Shown here: positions 33,434 through 49,222 of the stretch, piece by piece
Layout: each line of letters opens with the position of its first letter
Position numbering within the stretch: the first letter of the stretch is position 1
Source of the DNA: Nocardia fluminea
Lineage (GTDB): Bacteria > Actinomycetota > Actinomycetes > Mycobacteriales > Mycobacteriaceae
Length of the DNA stretch: 64,000 bases
NCBI RefSeq assembly: GCF_002846365.1
Contig: NZ_PJMW01000001.1
Coordinates: 372,001-436,000 of the forward strand
Direction: 5' to 3'
The notes under the pieces: generated by a model
The model's database searches: none
Seen by the model: the letters and a program-made list of their open reading frames with translations, nothing else
What the model was told of the DNA's origin: nothing
Translations under genes and position numbers: made by a program

Positions 33434-34066
33434 CTAGGTCATGTCTCCCAATAGCTTCAGCCATTCGACCGTGAGGGCCATGACGATCCCGGCCCGGTAA
33501 GTACAGGCCAGCTTGTCGTAACGAGTTGCGACACCACGCCAGTGTTTGGCCTTGTTGAACGCTCGCTCGACCACATTGCGACCCTTGTAGGCATCGGAGT
33601 CGAACCCGGGCGGGCGTCCACCGGCACGACCTCGACGTTTCCGGTTGGCGACCTGATCAGACCGCTGCGGGATCACCGCCACAATCCGCTTGCTCCGCAA
33701 CAGCTTTCGATTCGCCGCCGAGGAATACGCCTTGTCGGCCAGGACCTGATCAGGATTCCGGCGCGGCGGACCACCAACCAATCGCGGGACCGCGATCGCG
33801 TCGAGCACAGCGGGCATCACCGGACAATCTGCAGCCTGGCCCGCGGTGATCAACACCGCCAAACCGCGACCGTTGCCGTCGGTAGCCAAGTGGGCTTTGG
33901 TAGTCAGCCCGCCCCGAGACCGGCCGATCCCGTGATCAGCCGGCTCATAACTCACCGTCCGGGCCGGAAACCGTGCCCTCGCCACGACGGGTGTTGGCGC
34001 CATGTTGATGCACCCGCACGATCGTCGAATCGACCGAGACCACCCAATCGAGATTCCCGGTCGCAT
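33434..34066 (-). CDS. IS-A transposase, C-terminal frame (orfB)
   Basis: 210 codons in the +1 frame relative to orfA. ADHGIGRSRGGLTTKAHL starts the catalytic core, the second Asp is in VLADKAYSS and the Glu in NVVERAFNKAKHWRG. Together with orfA this gives a complete DDE enzyme, so a +1 frameshift (or -2) in the 120-bp overlap is needed. Its stop TAG is formed by the CTAG target flank (33434-33437). Confidence 0.85.
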   Translation of the reverse strand: MRPGISIGWSRSIRRSCGCINMAPTPVVARARFPARTVSYEPADHGIGRSRGGLTTKAHLATDGNGRGLAVLITAGQAADCPVMPAVLDAIAVPRLVGGPPRRNPDQVLADKAYSSAANRKLLRSKRIVAVIPQRSDQVANRKRRGRAGGRPPGFDSDAYKGRNVVERAFNKAKHWRGVATRYDKLACTYRAGIVMALTVEWLKLLGDMT

Positions 34067-34410
34067 CGGCCAACGCAGTCAGCGCGACCAGCACCCGATC
34101 CCAGGTGCCGTCGGCGGCATACCGGCGGTGCCGTTTCCATACCGTCTGCCACGGACCGAATACCTCGGGCAGATCACGCCAGGGCATCCCGGTCCGCAAC
34201 CGGAACAACATTCCCTCGACGACCTGGCGGTTGTTGGAGAAGTTACGGCCCACGCGGCCATCGGATTTCGGTAACAGCAGCTCGAGGAGTTCCCACTGGT
34301 TGTCCGTCAGAACCTGATGCCGATCACCGACAGTCGCCGCCACGGCGAACATGATGCCCGACCCGACGATCTATCGGGCGAGAACCGGAAACTCAATTGG
34401 GAGACATGAC
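33438..34410 (-). mobile_element. IS-A copy 1, IS5 family (IS427-like), 973 bp
   Basis: The terminal inverted repeats read GGTCATGTCTCCCAAT at the left and its exact complement at the right. The first G belongs to the CTAG flank if a 4-bp duplication is assumed; a 2-bp TA duplication is equally consistent. Flanked by CTAG at 33434-33437 and 34411-34414. Carries two overlapping transposase frames on the minus strand. Inserted in the beta-propeller gene next to IS-B. Confidence 0.88.
33945..34352 (-). CDS. IS-A transposase, N-terminal frame (orfA)
   Basis: 135 residues. LTDNQWELLELLLP, then GMLFRLRTGMPWRDLPEVFGPWQTVWKR split over residues 45-75, is the IS5-family N-terminal domain. The first catalytic Asp is in VVSVDSTIVRVHQHGA. 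The frame ends TTA TGA inside orfB. TTA is a rare codon in high-GC actinobacteria. Confidence 0.85.
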   Translation of the reverse strand: MFAVAATVGDRHQVLTDNQWELLELLLPKSDGRVGRNFSNNRQVVEGMLFRLRTGMPWRDLPEVFGPWQTVWKRHRRYAADGTWDRVLVALTALADATGNLDWVVSVDSTIVRVHQHGANTRRGEGTVSGPDGEL

Positions 34411-34605
34411 CTAGTACTCCAGCCGCACTTCGTGATGTAATCGGTGTCGCCGCTGGTAGTGGGCTTGTTTGGCCCGGTATTGGTGGCGGCGCCGCCAGAT
34501 CGACCATTGCCAGACCCGGTCGAGGGTCGGGTCGGTAGTGATCAGGTGTGCCAGGAGACGTCGAACTTCGCCGAGGGTGAGCGAGATGAGGCCGCTGCCA
34601 ACGCT
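34411..34605 (-). CDS. IS-B transposase C-terminal extension in -1 frame
   Basis: The zero frame reads GCC CCA AAA; a -1 slip on C_CCA_AAA (34611-34605) leads into 64 residues containing LISLTLGEVRRLLAHL and WSIWRRRHQYRAKQAHYQRR, the typical IS701 end. The fused product would be about 442 residues. The frame ends TAC TAG, where CTAG is the target duplication. Confidence 0.7.
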   Translation of the reverse strand, partial: SVGSGLISLTLGEVRRLLAHLITTDPTLDRVWQWSIWRRRHQYRAKQAHYQRRHRLHHEVRLEY

Positions 34606-35783
34606 TTTGGGGCAATAGCGGCGGTCACGGCGAGGTAGGTGTGGGCGAGCATGGCGAGAGTGACATGCCGGTACCAGGCGTCGTAGCGCCGGACCTGATA
34701 CTGGTCGAGCCCGACCTCGGTTTTCGCGGTCTGGAAACAATCCTCGACAGCCCAGCGAGCACCGGCGACCCGGATCAGTTCCTCATCGCTGGTACCGGTC
34801 GGCGCGCAGCACATGTAGTAGGCGATCTCCAACTCGCCCTTGGTATTCGGAGACAAGCCACGCCGAGCGAGTAGCCACCGGCTCCACCCCGGTGGGGTCG
34901 TCCACTCGTAGACCGGAAGCGACGCGACGGCCCAGTCGAACATTCGTGGCCCCTTCGCGCCTGCCCCGCAGCTCAGGCGCTTCCACGCCTGCGCGGGGGC
35001 GTGCGCGACAAGATGATCGGCACGGGTGCTGCCCGCGGTGACCGGGATCGTCTGATTTCTCGGGACGGCGACCACGTACCCGATGCGACGGTCTTCGAGC
35101 CAGGTCCGGAACTTGTAGTCACCGCCGTAGGCTTCGTCCGCGGTCACCCACCGCGCAGGCACTCCGGCATCCAGTGCTCGGGCCAGCATTTGTTTGGCGA
35201 GCGTGGTCTTGGTAGCGAACTCGACGTTATCGGGTACGTATGCCTCGCGGCAGCGGTCACGGTCGCCGGTCCACGATTTCGGCAGATACAGTTCCCGGTC
35301 GATCAGCGTGCGGCCCTTGACGGTGGTGTATGCGCAGAACACCCCGAGTTGACAGTTCTCGATCCGACCAGCTGTGCCGGAGTATTGCCGTTGTACCCCA
35401 GCTGATTTCACTCCCTTTTTGATAAATCCGGTCTCGTCGACTACCAAAACTCCATCCGGGTCGCCCAGGTACTCGACCGCATAGGCGCGCACGTCGTCAC
35501 GTACCCCGTCGGCGTCCCAGGCAGCATGGTTCAACAGCCGTTGCATCCCATCCGGGGTCTCCTCACCAGCGGCTTCGGCAATTGTCCAGCCATTCTTCCC
35601 GGCTAGCGGCGCCAACAAGCCGCGCACGTAGGCGCGGGCCCGTAATCTCGGCTCTGCCCGGTAGAAACGGCCAGCGACTCGCCCGAACAGGTCATCCAGC
35701 CCGGCCACCCACGCGACCAGGTCCTCATCGATCGACACGACGGAAGACGTTACCGCACAACATAACTAAGTGCGGCTGGAGTA
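34415..35783 (-). mobile_element. IS-B copy 1, IS701 family, 1369 bp
   Basis: The ends are inverted repeats beginning TACTCCAGCCGCACTT. It is flanked by CTAG at 34411-34414 and 35784-35787, matching the 4-bp YTAR-type duplication of IS701 elements. The left CTAG is shared with IS-A. Confidence 0.88.
34542..35738 (-). CDS. IS-B transposase, zero-frame product
   Basis: 398 residues. DDE motifs: VLVVDETGFIKKG (first Asp), VTADEAYGGD (second Asp) and WAVEDCFQTAKTEVGLDQYQVR (Glu, near residue 335). The zero-frame tail after APKA loses family resemblance, whereas the -1 frame from 34605 gives the expected IS701 C-terminus. All three copies share this arrangement. Starts with GTG, no strong RBS. 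Confidence 0.85.
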   Translation of the reverse strand: MSIDEDLVAWVAGLDDLFGRVAGRFYRAEPRLRARAYVRGLLAPLAGKNGWTIAEAAGEETPDGMQRLLNHAAWDADGVRDDVRAYAVEYLGDPDGVLVVDETGFIKKGVKSAGVQRQYSGTAGRIENCQLGVFCAYTTVKGRTLIDRELYLPKSWTGDRDRCREAYVPDNVEFATKTTLAKQMLARALDAGVPARWVTADEAYGGDYKFRTWLEDRRIGYVVAVPRNQTIPVTAGSTRADHLVAHAPAQAWKRLSCGAGAKGPRMFDWAVASLPVYEWTTPPGWSRWLLARRGLSPNTKGELEIAYYMCCAPTGTSDEELIRVAGARWAVEDCFQTAKTEVGLDQYQVRRYDAWYRHVTLAMLAHTYLAVTAAIAPKALAAASSRSPSAKFDVSWHT

Positions 35784-36722
35784 CTAGTCGGCTACGACCT
35801 CACCACCGGAGATGTCACCCGCACACCGACGACGTGGTTTCCCTTCGCCATCGCGACACTCGATAATCGCGCGTACGTCGCCGAGGGCGACATCGAATCC
35901 GACGACGTGCGCGTCCACGCCGGCACCCTCGCCGACCCGGATGCGTACTGGTCTCAGGCATTCGTCATGGGTGCGTTGTGGGAAGACTTCTACTCCTTGG
36001 ACGTATCCCACGGCCAAGGAGTCTTCACCCTCGGCGCCGATATCGCCGGGTTCGACCTCGCCAGCGGAAAGCAGACCTGGACCACCACCCAGGACAGATG
36101 CTCCTATGCCGGCGCAACCAGCGGCGCATTGCTCGTGCGCGCCCGAACCGAATGCGGCGACGAAGAAGCCGCCGGCAGCGACCTCCTCAACCGCACCGGC
36201 CGCACCATTGCGACCTCCAACAGCGCAGTCGCCCAGACACTTTCGATCGACCTCCCTACCGACGACACCGTCCCCGTCCTGCTCGGCGACAGCGGCTATG
36301 ACCGCCGCACCGGCAGCCACCTGTGGACGAGCTCCGACCTGATTTCCGCACCCCAGGAAACCAACGCTACGACCGGCACCGCAGCCGCAATATTCGGCGA
36401 CGTCGCCCTCCTGCAAGACACCAACGCGAACACCACAAGCGGCCTCGACTTACGCACCGGACACCGCTTGTGGCGGACCGACACCACCCGCTTCGGCACG
36501 ATCCTGGGCTGGGACGGCCACACCGTAGTCCTCTCCGATTACACCGGACTCTGGGCAATCGACCCCCGAACCGGCACCATCACCTGGGACATTCCATTCC
36601 TCGCCGTGAACACCGACACCGAGGCCCTCACCGGACCAAGCCAACTCGCCGCACACGATAAGGGCCACTACACCTACGCCAGCGCCCAAACAATAATCAG
36701 GCTCCGACCCCTCGAACAGTGA
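35784..36722 (+). pseudogene. 3' part of the split beta-propeller gene
   Basis: 312 codons with propeller-blade motifs: VGYDLTTGD, AGFDLASGKQTW, GYDRRTGSHLW, GLDLRTGHRLW and WAIDPRTGTITWDI (each a (A/G)xDxxTGxxxW-type strand turn). This is the PQQ-binding-like repeat without other domains. Continuous in frame with 33005-33433 when the insertion is removed. No start codon of its own is evident. Confidence 0.85.
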
Positions 36723-44929: not shown

Positions 44930-45074
44930 CATCGGCCTTCCTGTCCAGGTCATGGGAGTGAAAGCACACACTCGACACAGCAGGCGAGAATGAAAACCAA
45001 GATCATGTGATCGTACGCCCCGAGGCTTGCGCACGCAGCCCCTGATCTACTACCCCGACTTGGGGGCCTGCTAG

Positions 45075-46443
45075 TACTCCAGCCGCACTTAGTTATGTTG
45101 TGCGGTAACGTCTTCCGTCGTGTCGATCGATGAGGACCTGGTCGCGTGGGTGGCCGGGCTGGATGACCTGTTCGGGCGAGTCGCTGGCCGTTTCTACCGG
45201 GCAGAGCCGAGATTACGGGCCCGCGCCTACGTGCGCGGCTTGTTGGCGCCGCTAGCCGGGAAGAATGGCTGGACAATTGCCGAAGCCGCTGGTGAGGAGA
45301 CCCCGGATGGGATGCAACGGCTGTTGAACCATGCTGCCTGGGACGCCGACGGGGTACGTGACGACGTGCGCGCCTATGCGGTCGAGTACCTGGGCGACCC
45401 GGATGGAGTTTTGGTAGTCGACGAGACCGGATTTATCAAAAAGGGAGTGAAATCAGCTGGGGTACAACGGCAATACTCCGGCACAGCTGGTCGGATCGAG
45501 AACTGTCAACTCGGGGTGTTCTGCGCATACACCACCGTCAAGGGCCGCACGCTGATCGACCGGGAACTGTATCTGCCGAAATCGTGGACCGGCGACCGTG
45601 ACCGCTGCCGCGAGGCATACGTACCCGATAACGTCGAGTTCGCTACCAAGACCACGCTCGCCAAACAAATGCTGGCCCGAGCACTGGATGCCGGAGTGCC
45701 TGCGCGGTGGGTGACCGCGGACGAAGCCTACGGCGGTGACTACAAGTTCCGGACCTGGCTCGAAGACCGTCGCATCGGGTACGTGGTCGCCGTCCCGAGA
45801 AATCAGACGATCCCGGTCACCGCGGGCAGCACCCGTGCCGATCATCTTGTCGCGCACGCCCCCGCGCAGGCGTGGAAGCGCCTGAGCTGCGGGGCAGGCG
45901 CGAAGGGGCCACGAATGTTCGACTGGGCCGTCGCGTCGCTTCCGGTCTACGAGTGGACGACCCCACCGGGGTGGAGCCGGTGGCTACTCGCTCGGCGTGG
46001 CTTGTCTCCGAATACCAAGGGCGAGTTGGAGATCGCCTACTACATGTGCTGCGCGCCGACCGGTACCAGCGATGAGGAACTGATCCGGGTCGCCGGTGCT
46101 CGCTGGGCTGTCGAGGATTGTTTCCAGACCGCGAAAACCGAGGTCGGGCTCGACCAGTATCAGGTCCGGCGCTACGACGCCTGGTACCGGCATGTCACTC
46201 TCGCCATGCTCGCCCACACCTACCTCGCCGTGACCGCCGCTATTGCCCCAAAAGCGTTGGCAGCGGCCTCATCTCGCTCACCCTCGGCGAAGTTCGACGT
46301 CTCCTGGCACACCTGATCACTACCGACCCGACCCTCGACCGGGTCTGGCAATGGTCGATCTGGCGGCGCCGCCACCAATACCGGGCCAAACAAGCCCACT
46401 ACCAGCGGCGACACCGATTACATCACGAAGTGCGGCTGGAGTA
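45075..46443 (+). mobile_element. IS-B copy 2, inverted, IS701 family
   Basis: Same 1369-bp element as at 34415 but on the plus strand, flanked by CTAG at 45071-45074 and 46444-46447. With copy 3 it brackets IS-A in inverted orientation. Confidence 0.88.
45120..46316 (+). CDS. IS-B transposase (copy 2), zero frame
   Basis: Identical in sequence to the 398-residue product at 34542. The slippery heptamer CCCAAAA is at 46247-46253; the -1 frame would extend to the TAG at 46445-46447, again supplied by CTAG. Confidence 0.85.
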   Translation: MSIDEDLVAWVAGLDDLFGRVAGRFYRAEPRLRARAYVRGLLAPLAGKNGWTIAEAAGEETPDGMQRLLNHAAWDADGVRDDVRAYAVEYLGDPDGVLVVDETGFIKKGVKSAGVQRQYSGTAGRIENCQLGVFCAYTTVKGRTLIDRELYLPKSWTGDRDRCREAYVPDNVEFATKTTLAKQMLARALDAGVPARWVTADEAYGGDYKFRTWLEDRRIGYVVAVPRNQTIPVTAGSTRADHLVAHAPAQAWKRLSCGAGAKGPRMFDWAVASLPVYEWTTPPGWSRWLLARRGLSPNTKGELEIAYYMCCAPTGTSDEELIRVAGARWAVEDCFQTAKTEVGLDQYQVRRYDAWYRHVTLAMLAHTYLAVTAAIAPKALAAASSRSPSAKFDVSWHT

Positions 46444-47076
46444 CTAGGTCATGTCTCCCAATAGCTTCAGCCATTCGACCGTGAGGGCCATGACGATCCC
46501 GGCCCGGTAAGTACAGGCCAGCTTGTCGTAACGAGTTGCGACACCACGCCAGTGTTTGGCCTTGTTGAACGCTCGCTCGACCACATTGCGACCCTTGTAG
46601 GCATCGGAGTCGAACCCGGGCGGGCGTCCACCGGCACGACCTCGACGTTTCCGGTTGGCGACCTGATCAGACCGCTGCGGGATCACCGCCACAATCCGCT
46701 TGCTCCGCAACAGCTTTCGATTCGCCGCCGAGGAATACGCCTTGTCGGCCAGGACCTGATCAGGATTCCGGCGCGGCGGACCACCAACCAATCGCGGGAC
46801 CGCGATCGCGTCGAGCACAGCGGGCATCACCGGACAATCTGCAGCCTGGCCCGCGGTGATCAACACCGCCAAACCGCGACCGTTGCCGTCGGTAGCCAAG
46901 TGGGCTTTGGTAGTCAGCCCGCCCCGAGACCGGCCGATCCCGTGATCAGCCGGCTCATAACTCACCGTCCGGGCCGGAAACCGTGCCCTCGCCACGACGG
47001 GTGTTGGCGCCATGTTGATGCACCCGCACGATCGTCGAATCGACCGAGACCACCCAATCGAGATTCCCGGTCGCAT
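46444..47076 (-). CDS. IS-A transposase orfB (copy 2)
   Basis: Identical to the product at 33434; the stop TAG again comes from the flanking CTAG. Confidence 0.85.
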   Translation of the reverse strand: MRPGISIGWSRSIRRSCGCINMAPTPVVARARFPARTVSYEPADHGIGRSRGGLTTKAHLATDGNGRGLAVLITAGQAADCPVMPAVLDAIAVPRLVGGPPRRNPDQVLADKAYSSAANRKLLRSKRIVAVIPQRSDQVANRKRRGRAGGRPPGFDSDAYKGRNVVERAFNKAKHWRGVATRYDKLACTYRAGIVMALTVEWLKLLGDMT

Positions 47077-47420
47077 CGGCCAACGCAGTCAGCGCGACCA
47101 GCACCCGATCCCAGGTGCCGTCGGCGGCATACCGGCGGTGCCGTTTCCATACCGTCTGCCACGGACCGAATACCTCGGGCAGATCACGCCAGGGCATCCC
47201 GGTCCGCAACCGGAACAACATTCCCTCGACGACCTGGCGGTTGTTGGAGAAGTTACGGCCCACGCGGCCATCGGATTTCGGTAACAGCAGCTCGAGGAGT
47301 TCCCACTGGTTGTCCGTCAGAACCTGATGCCGATCACCGACAGTCGCCGCCACGGCGAACATGATGCCCGACCCGACGATCTATCGGGCGAGAACCGGAA
47401 ACTCAATTGGGAGACATGAC
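46448..47420 (-). mobile_element. IS-A copy 2, IS5 family
   Basis: Same element as at 33438, flanked by CTAG at 46444-46447 and 47421-47424, placed exactly between two IS-B copies. Confidence 0.88.
46955..47362 (-). CDS. IS-A transposase orfA (copy 2)
   Basis: Identical to the product at 33945, including the terminal TTA TGA. Confidence 0.85.
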   Translation of the reverse strand: MFAVAATVGDRHQVLTDNQWELLELLLPKSDGRVGRNFSNNRQVVEGMLFRLRTGMPWRDLPEVFGPWQTVWKRHRRYAADGTWDRVLVALTALADATGNLDWVVSVDSTIVRVHQHGANTRRGEGTVSGPDGEL

Positions 47421-47424
47421 CTAG

Positions 47425-48793
47425 TACTCCAGCCGCACTTCGTGATGTAATCGGTGTCGCCGCTGGTAGTGGGCTTGTTTGGCCCGGTATTGGTGGCGGC
47501 GCCGCCAGATCGACCATTGCCAGACCCGGTCGAGGGTCGGGTCGGTAGTGATCAGGTGTGCCAGGAGACGTCGAACTTCGCCGAGGGTGAGCGAGATGAG
47601 GCCGCTGCCAACGCTTTTGGGGCAATAGCGGCGGTCACGGCGAGGTAGGTGTGGGCGAGCATGGCGAGAGTGACATGCCGGTACCAGGCGTCGTAGCGCC
47701 GGACCTGATACTGGTCGAGCCCGACCTCGGTTTTCGCGGTCTGGAAACAATCCTCGACAGCCCAGCGAGCACCGGCGACCCGGATCAGTTCCTCATCGCT
47801 GGTACCGGTCGGCGCGCAGCACATGTAGTAGGCGATCTCCAACTCGCCCTTGGTATTCGGAGACAAGCCACGCCGAGCGAGTAGCCACCGGCTCCACCCC
47901 GGTGGGGTCGTCCACTCGTAGACCGGAAGCGACGCGACGGCCCAGTCGAACATTCGTGGCCCCTTCGCGCCTGCCCCGCAGCTCAGGCGCTTCCACGCCT
48001 GCGCGGGGGCGTGCGCGACAAGATGATCGGCACGGGTGCTGCCCGCGGTGACCGGGATCGTCTGATTTCTCGGGACGGCGACCACGTACCCGATGCGACG
48101 GTCTTCGAGCCAGGTCCGGAACTTGTAGTCACCGCCGTAGGCTTCGTCCGCGGTCACCCACCGCGCAGGCACTCCGGCATCCAGTGCTCGGGCCAGCATT
48201 TGTTTGGCGAGCGTGGTCTTGGTAGCGAACTCGACGTTATCGGGTACGTATGCCTCGCGGCAGCGGTCACGGTCGCCGGTCCACGATTTCGGCAGATACA
48301 GTTCCCGGTCGATCAGCGTGCGGCCCTTGACGGTGGTGTATGCGCAGAACACCCCGAGTTGACAGTTCTCGATCCGACCAGCTGTGCCGGAGTATTGCCG
48401 TTGTACCCCAGCTGATTTCACTCCCTTTTTGATAAATCCGGTCTCGTCGACTACCAAAACTCCATCCGGGTCGCCCAGGTACTCGACCGCATAGGCGCGC
48501 ACGTCGTCACGTACCCCGTCGGCGTCCCAGGCAGCATGGTTCAACAGCCGTTGCATCCCATCCGGGGTCTCCTCACCAGCGGCTTCGGCAATTGTCCAGC
48601 CATTCTTCCCGGCTAGCGGCGCCAACAAGCCGCGCACGTAGGCGCGGGCCCGTAATCTCGGCTCTGCCCGGTAGAAACGGCCAGCGACTCGCCCGAACAG
48701 GTCATCCAGCCCGGCCACCCACGCGACCAGGTCCTCATCGATCGACACGACGGAAGACGTTACCGCACAACATAACTAAGTGCGGCTGGAGTA
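47425..48793 (-). mobile_element. IS-B copy 3, IS701 family
   Basis: Flanked by CTAG at 47421-47424 and 48794-48797. The right CTAG also contains the stop codon of arfB. Confidence 0.88.
47552..48748 (-). CDS. IS-B transposase (copy 3), zero frame
   Basis: Identical to the product at 34542; slippery heptamer at 47615-47621. Confidence 0.85.
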   Translation of the reverse strand: MSIDEDLVAWVAGLDDLFGRVAGRFYRAEPRLRARAYVRGLLAPLAGKNGWTIAEAAGEETPDGMQRLLNHAAWDADGVRDDVRAYAVEYLGDPDGVLVVDETGFIKKGVKSAGVQRQYSGTAGRIENCQLGVFCAYTTVKGRTLIDRELYLPKSWTGDRDRCREAYVPDNVEFATKTTLAKQMLARALDAGVPARWVTADEAYGGDYKFRTWLEDRRIGYVVAVPRNQTIPVTAGSTRADHLVAHAPAQAWKRLSCGAGAKGPRMFDWAVASLPVYEWTTPPGWSRWLLARRGLSPNTKGELEIAYYMCCAPTGTSDEELIRVAGARWAVEDCFQTAKTEVGLDQYQVRRYDAWYRHVTLAMLAHTYLAVTAAIAPKALAAASSRSPSAKFDVSWHT

Positions 48794-49222
48794 CTAGTCG
48801 TCCGGGGAGGCGCGTCGGTTGCGTTTGGTGACACCGCGCCGCTTCTTCGCGGAAATGCGTCGTTCCTTCGCTCCGCGCGAGGGCTTGGTCGGGCGTCTAA
48901 CAGGCGGCGGGGCGGCTGCGGCGTCGCGAAGTAGCGAGGCCAGTCGCTCGCGGGCGACCGCGCGGTTCTGCAGTTGTGCGCGTTGCTCGGAGGCGGCGGT
49001 CGTGAGCACGCCGTTGACCAAGCGGGTGGCCAGGCGCTCGAGCATTCGGGTGCGCAGCCACTCCGGCACCGAGGGTGAGTTGGCGAGGTCGAACGACAGC
49101 TCTACCCGGCTGTCGGTGGTGTTGACGTGCTGTCCGCCCGGACCGGACGACCGTGAGAACCGCTCGCGTAGCTCGGATGCGGGTATCACCAGTCTCCTGG
49201 TCACGGTCAGGTCCTCTGCCAT
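48794..49222 (-). CDS. arfB: Ribosome-rescue peptidyl-tRNA hydrolase ArfB
   Basis: 142 residues from ATG at 49222. SSGPGGQHVNTTDSRVEL (about residues 25-42) contains the catalytic GGQ of release-factor-like hydrolases, followed by the helical linker and a Lys/Arg-rich tail (GAKERRISAKKRRGVTKRNRR) that enters the mRNA channel. It frees stalled ribosomes. Its stop TAG is the complement of CTA 48794-48796, that is, the IS target itself, so the insertion left the protein unchanged. Confidence 0.92.
   Translation of the reverse strand: MAEDLTVTRRLVIPASELRERFSRSSGPGGQHVNTTDSRVELSFDLANSPSVPEWLRTRMLERLATRLVNGVLTTAASEQRAQLQNRAVARERLASLLRDAAAAPPPVRRPTKPSRGAKERRISAKKRRGVTKRNRRASPDD

Follow-up and report, generated by a model that had tools for sequence, protein, structure and literature searches.

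The locus raises the question of what ends the transposase frames of two different insertion sequences that lie side by side in a stretch of 64,000 nucleotides from Nocardia fluminea (the window), where the reading frames of both elements run out into a flanking CTAG. The window contains three copies of an IS701-type element (IS-B), the same base for base, and two equally identical copies of an IS5-type, IS427-like element (IS-A). The elements are joined by shared CTAG into two arrays, CTAG IS-A CTAG IS-B CTAG at 33434-35787 and CTAG IS-B CTAG IS-A CTAG IS-B CTAG at 45071-48797. Their features are as follows.

33434-33437, no strand: CTAG target copy; its minus-strand TAG is the stop of IS-A orfB (from sequence).
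33434-34066, minus: IS-A orfB, with the end ATG ACC TAG (open reading frame).
33438-34410, minus: IS-A, IS5-family (IS427-like) insertion sequence, 973 bp (NF033580 transpos_IS5_3).
33945-34352, minus: IS-A orfA, DUF4096 (open reading frame and domain).
34411-34414, no strand: CTAG target copy at the IS-B right end, also the IS-A left flank; minus-strand TAG 34413-34411 is the stop of the -1 tail.
34411-34740, minus: IS-B -1 frame with the C-terminal tail (..LTLGEVRRLLAHLI...WRRRHQ...VRLEY), closed by the target TAG.
34415-35783, minus: IS-B, IS701-family insertion sequence, 1369 bp, ends TACTCCAGCCGCACTT... (inverted ends and CTAG flanks; NF033540).
34542-35738, minus: IS-B zero frame, GTG start, 398 aa, ending before the C-terminal tail (DDE_5 and DDE_Tnp_1 domains).
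34605-34611, minus: slippery heptamer C CCA AAA, in frame, candidate -1 site (from sequence; phase kept in 30 of 66 distinct -1 relatives).
35784-35787, no strand: CTAG target copy at the IS-B left end (from sequence).
45075-46443, plus: IS-B copy two, identical; -1 tail stop in CTAG 46444-46447.
46444-46447, no strand: palindromic CTAG common to the stops of the IS-B (plus) tail and the IS-A (minus) orfB.
46448-47420, minus: IS-A copy two, 973 bp, identical; orfB stop in CTAG 46444-46447.
47425-48793, minus: IS-B copy three, identical; tail stop in CTAG 47421-47424.

IS-B scores 439.4 bits against the IS701 transposase model NF033540 transpos_IS701 (cut-off 150). Against the IS5 model NF033580 (cut-off 110) orfB and orfA of IS-A score 139.9 and 123 bits, respectively, and IS-A presumably belongs to the IS427 group. 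At 1369 bp IS-B falls slightly under the range of 1400-1550 bp given in the accessible part of PMC2266710, and its end TACT, the only stretch compared, is compatible with the YACT of the end consensus given there. The best named protein relatives of the IS-B transposase, among the best 120 of 7997 matches, are from Nocardia.

On the minus strand the -1 frame of IS-B ends with GAG TAC TAG, in which TAG is 34413-34411, and orfB of IS-A ends with ATG ACC TAG, the TAG lying inside CTAG 33434-33437 in one copy and CTAG 46444-46447 in the other. Neither frame contains an earlier stop, each staying open up to the element's final base. The coordinates and codons that a preliminary description had given for the two ends proved correct on recheck, and so did its statement that the elements have no stop of their own and find TAG in the flanking CTAG at all five insertions (three of IS-B and two of IS-A), which are copies of two elements and hence two observations only. 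The borrowed stop in IS-B and IS-A is thereby confirmed, the TAG of the target closing a transposase frame that lacks its own stop, an arrangement of the IS870 type. Across the source assembly the target stop is present in 6 of 6 full-length IS-B copies at 100% protein identity, in 5 of 5 IS-A copies and in one 94% IS-A relative; the exceptions in this genome are a 60% IS701 relative with its own stop (L007) and a degenerate IS-A copy (L018/L019).

Stop codons supplied by the target are already known. IS870 is an element from Agrobacterium and belongs to the IS5 family, IS427 group. That it requires CTAG to generate a stop codon is stated in the title of Fournier, Paulus and Otten (1993; cited in PMC6471742); as in IS-A and IS-B the CTAG target gives the stop of its large open reading frame, although IS-B is of another family. 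As far as the consulted portions of the two reports extend, the transposase stop of ISRe46/TnRErm46 (IS481 family) is the TAG of the right flanking CTAG (PMC6794481), and that of ISLxc2 and ISLxx4, also of the IS481 family, lies within the duplicated target NCTAGN (PMC2516522). The source of the stop is thus like that in IS-A and IS-B, but ISRe46 has an NCTAGN duplication and an IS481 transposase, and ISLxc2 and ISLxx4 likewise differ in family and in duplication length. The use of the same CTAG by two families, which the preliminary description called striking, is no new surprise, since it has been published for IS870 as well as for IS481-family members. What is extended here, from the CTAG case known since 1993, is the range of families: IS-B shares with the IS701 family, as described in the accessible part of PMC2266710, both transposase model NF033540 and a 4-bp duplication; with it, a third transposase family joins the IS5- and IS481-type elements that take their stop from the target. 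No account of such a stop in IS701 was found in the literature searched, which had most subscription papers and ISfinder outside its scope. The excerpts available of PMC2266710, PMC8944449, PMC7371123, PMC8024623 and PMC9569102 state none for IS701, those of PMC3119063, PMC9676059 and PMC9569102 contain nothing on target-supplied stops, and the text available of PMC2266710 on IS701 contains nothing on stop codons or a -1 shift.

All window copies have CTAG on both sides, as the 4-bp target duplication of IS701 demands, and the flanks of relatives are equal in 87 of 104 rows, one of the 104 (L085) being a false end. YTAR is the known target of IS701. Two members of the family, ISGka1/2, have repeats of 4-9 bp without consensus (PMC8024623, in the part available), which means that YTAR does not hold for the whole family. 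When the flanks of the 94% IS-A relative from this genome are joined with one CTAG, they match six other genomes of the genus at 97-100%, and in two of the six over 244 of 244 bases. The single CTAG in these uninserted genomes means that CTAG pre-existed and was then duplicated; in this relative the stop sequence was in the target before insertion (six genomes). The joined flanks of the IS-A+IS-B unit in the window align gap-free (83-93%) with the four relatives checked, which carry CTCG (two), ATCG and ATGA at the place of CTAG. Since these relatives are without CTAG, only the four-base duplication is supported at this site, and the gap-free alignment, while fitting a 4-bp duplication, is no evidence on IS-B alone. 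A clean empty site was not found for the IS-A copy C2:5286968 (L016), for which two relatives (G629, G630) have about 242 bp between the flanks and lack CTAG at the junction; the presence of these ~242 bp in two relatives (L203, L204) as against L016 reflects either a deletion that came with the insertion or an insertion in the relatives. For the three-element array at 45071-48797 no empty site was recovered, as relatives match the right flank only: the joined-flank query is matched from about base 115-123 onwards, in a few cases later, and in G640 from base 101. An empty site for a lone IS-B copy was likewise not found.

The stop in IS-B matters only if the -1 frame is used. The preliminary description took the full-length IS-B enzyme to require this frame, and this is borne out, for the conserved C-terminal tail is reached there; in correction of that description, the 398-residue zero frame is no alternative full-length protein, as it lacks that tail. 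A tail profile was made from 17 seeds, all target-stop relatives; of 136 IS701 loci scanned with it in three frames, 134 gave a match, the exceptions being L071 and L149. Among the 80 distinct IS701 elements kept (see below) the tail lies in the -1 frame in 66, in frame in 12 and otherwise in 2. The 12 in-frame elements, 48-56% identical, group together as a distant clade in which each has one open frame of 448-507 codons, and all of them come from 20 loci selected mostly for long open frames. The presence of the tail in both -1 and in-frame elements argues that it is an old part of the enzyme, which the near relatives reach by a shift. On sequence comparison, then, the -1 frame of IS-B is a genuine C-terminal tail of the transposase.

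A -1 slip at 34611-34605 would give a predicted product of 378 + 64 = 442 residues. Among the 66 distinct -1 elements CCCAAAA is conserved in phase within the overlap of the two frames in 30, A AAG GGG in 13 and an in-phase heptamer of any X XXY YYZ type in 45, with no strict in-phase heptamer in the overlap of the other 21. In the same open reading frames CCA accounts for 65 of the 1124 codons for proline, and AAA for 171 of the 748 for lysine. No stimulatory RNA structure was detected, the 126 nt around the heptamer folding no better than shuffles (z -0.67). Some -1 frameshift sites work without such a structure. In pairwise comparison of 10 elements the tail beyond the zero-frame stop differs at 565 third, 550 first and 483 second codon positions, with 308 synonymous and 687 non-synonymous codon differences; the near-even distribution over the codon positions suggests that purifying selection beyond the zero-frame stop is weak or masked. 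The shift at C CCA AAA is most likely ribosomal and is probably both programmed and productive. A -1 shift in IS701 is not mentioned in the literature examined, including the accessible part of PMC2266710. Gene callers will clip IS701 transposases at the zero-frame stop and so miss what is likely the real C-terminus.

The survey of relatives addressed how general the borrowed stop is. Of the 136 IS701 loci examined, 30 were dropped for want of a YTAR right flank, for a contig end, for lack of a tail or for a tail stop >60 nt from the end, and the 82 distinct rows became 80 when L083, whose end is false, and L148, which has an internal deletion, were removed. Sampling was not random: it took in the best 80 of 562 confirmed places, part of the matches of other searches and 20 chosen loci, and the resulting fractions are not population frequencies. 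In the IS427-like survey ends were obtained for 43 of 61 loci, giving 32 distinct elements, with L018/L019 (one locus seen twice, the degenerate copy of IS-A, which runs on) outside this count. The scoring of ends and flanks that the preliminary description had proposed gave a divided answer: the stop overlaps the target in 30 of 80 IS701 and 18 of 32 IS427-like elements, and is the element's own in 50 of 80 and 14 of 32. The target-supplied stop is thus recurrent and facultative among the relatives. Among the 18 IS427-like loci without ends, nine are target-stop-like by eye (L102, L109, L114, L116, L117, L159, L177, L178 and L181).

The own stops of the 50 IS701 relatives are situated 5-35 nt inside the element end. 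In L020, which is 90% identical to IS-B, an own TAA starts 17 nt before the end, in the right repeat, and this codon aligns with GAA of IS-B; neighbours also differ, L025 being unlike L024 and L026 in its stop state. On a quick maximum-likelihood tree of IS701 the stop state changed at least nine times, five of the changes being forced by starred branches, and with an own-stop root assumed there were 6-7 gains and 2-3 losses of the target stop; the trait has been gained and lost repeatedly. The end register is right in 30 of 30 target-stop elements, by definition, and in 19 of 50 own-stop IS701 elements (counted from end offsets), with 7 of 14 for own-stop IS427-like elements. The own-stop values are near the unconstrained expectation. 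None of the 80 IS701 and none of the 32 IS427-like elements kept is both stop-less and out of register.

The right flanks of the 80 elements are CTAG (54), CTAA (12), TTAG (8), TTAA (5) and TCTA (1), a YTAR right flank having been the filter for inclusion in all but L041. This element has TCTA, not YTAR, on both sides, and its own stop. Five elements (L066, L073, L086, L097 and L147) have TTAG on the left and CTAA on the right, which are inverted complements and form no direct repeat; four of the five are in one clade, and either recombination between copies or a different definition of the ends would account for them. Inspection of the surroundings of 20 rows, of which 19 had been dropped, gave target-stop-like ends for L027/L131 (a single locus at a tandem junction, recovered twice), L054 and L137. 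The other rows that show an end are mostly own-stop-like, L146 and L190 showing none; the right flank of L093 is GTAG. L044, dropped by the distance filter, runs past the element end to the contig end in the tail frame and is a changed copy whose siblings have their own stop. A megablast search of plasmids gave one weak IS701 match.

The 30 distinct target-stop IS701 elements share a simple rule. The preliminary description proposed that a terminus in TA turns any YTAR into tyrosine and a stop, which holds for all four YTAR variants. All 30 place TA or TG before the Y of the target, reading TAY TAR (Tyr-stop) in 26 and TGY TAR (Cys-stop) in the other four. Because NNY is synonymous for either Y and TAR is always a stop, only this phase lets the target close the frame by itself, and the same protein results from all four YTAR targets. 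With two element bases before YTAR, it makes no difference to termination which YTAR variant is the target. A TA terminus also acquires a stop on any flank that starts with A or G, TAA and TAG both being stops, so that a bad target will often still end the frame.

These features are best explained if termination by the target serves as an economy (probability roughly 0.8). The transposase frame would cross the right terminal inverted repeat and stay open up to the element's final base, two bases into a codon. A legitimate YTAR would then be read as NNY TAR, Y being a synonymous third position and TAR the stop, so that neither the last residue nor the point of termination would vary between legitimate insertions. 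In IS-B a -1 shift at C CCA AAA (most likely ribosomal) would lead into the tail, and in IS-A orfB would be closed by CTAG. Lineages without their own stop would have to hold the register, and those with a stop just inside the repeat would not. With a stop provided at each landing site, an element would need none of its own, which may provide robustness as well as economy; selection would on this explanation have acted on termination rather than on target sensing. Counting against economy are the 21 of 66 elements without a heptamer, the weak codon signal, the missing RNA fold, the run-on in L044, the non-random sample and the IS701 members elsewhere without a consensus target (in the available part of PMC8024623).

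A tail that is open to the end in the TAG register purely by chance, and free of selection, is unlikely. The chance of the right register is about 1 in 3 per element, given a frame open to the end, which for the two elements of the window is not small, and L044 and L018/L019, both outside the counts, are indeed stop-less and out of register; on the other hand, coincidence predicts neither the absence of such elements from the 80 and 32 that were kept nor the 6-7 independent gains inferred in IS701. It is quite unlikely, too, that IS-B is a frameshift mutant whose enzyme is the 398-residue zero frame, making the stop of a dead tail irrelevant. Among the best 120 of 7997 protein relatives 102 are 396-398 aa in length, all 17 aligned relatives end V(S/F)WHT, and the codon-position signal is weak, but 12 of the 80 elements, those of the distant clade, carry this tail in frame with the main open reading frame, and relatives as little as ~55% identical still have it in -1, often with CCA AAA despite both being minority codons.

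The preliminary description went further and suggested that the overlap ties expression of the complete enzyme to proper insertion. Under such a coupling a complete and correctly ended enzyme would be made only at a legitimate target, and mis-inserted or circular forms would run on and be self-limiting. Loss of the target TAR would indeed yield a different protein, with a run-on of 0 to 142 codons (median 30) in the actual flanks of 30 elements, and of 7 to 400 codons (median 15) at a hypothetical junction of the element's two ends without a spacer. These run-ons are mostly short, however, and the TA end closes on an A or G flank, as in L068, an IS701 relative with a non-YTAR right flank (ATAA), where TA followed by A gives TAA at the junction. 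Any copy that is expressed is also already inserted by definition. Nearly all right flanks are YTAR, but this results from the filter (except for L041), so mis-insertions would be under-counted. Close relatives have their own stops (L020 at 90%; L025 beside L024 and L026). The preliminary description had itself named close homologues with a stop well inside the element as evidence against its claim, and the survey largely bears this out: own stops are found in L020 and in 50 of 80 relatives, although near the end rather than well inside. The coupling is therefore unsupported and very unlikely. A stronger form, in which the -1 shift and borrowed stop together make a fidelity check in IS701, is likewise very unlikely; only copies at YTAR would make the correctly ended 442-residue transposase, copies elsewhere would have another end and lower activity, and the target would license the next jump. 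The observation itself is correct and of a known kind, the regulatory meaning given to it is unsupported, and the economy of a stop found in the target is the preferred explanation.

The arrays show some further arrangements. At 46444-46447 one palindromic CTAG provides TAG for two converging transposase frames on opposite strands, the open reading frames 46118-46447 (plus) and 46444-47076 (minus) overlapping by that CTAG. The pair IS-A CTAG IS-B is seen three times with differing outer flanks, at 33434-35787, at 46444-48797 and at ~922,600-925,600 of G000:C1 (L004, L012), and on contig C3 three IS701 copies (L005, L006 and L007) stand in a row, joined by CTAG. Such pairs and rows may have arisen by stacking of elements at each other's CTAG or by movement as a unit. 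The IS-A+IS-B unit at 33434-35787 apparently interrupts a gene of the beta-propeller (PQQ_2) type: the open reading frame 35907-36722 downstream of the unit matches PQQ_2, and the site is uninterrupted in relatives.
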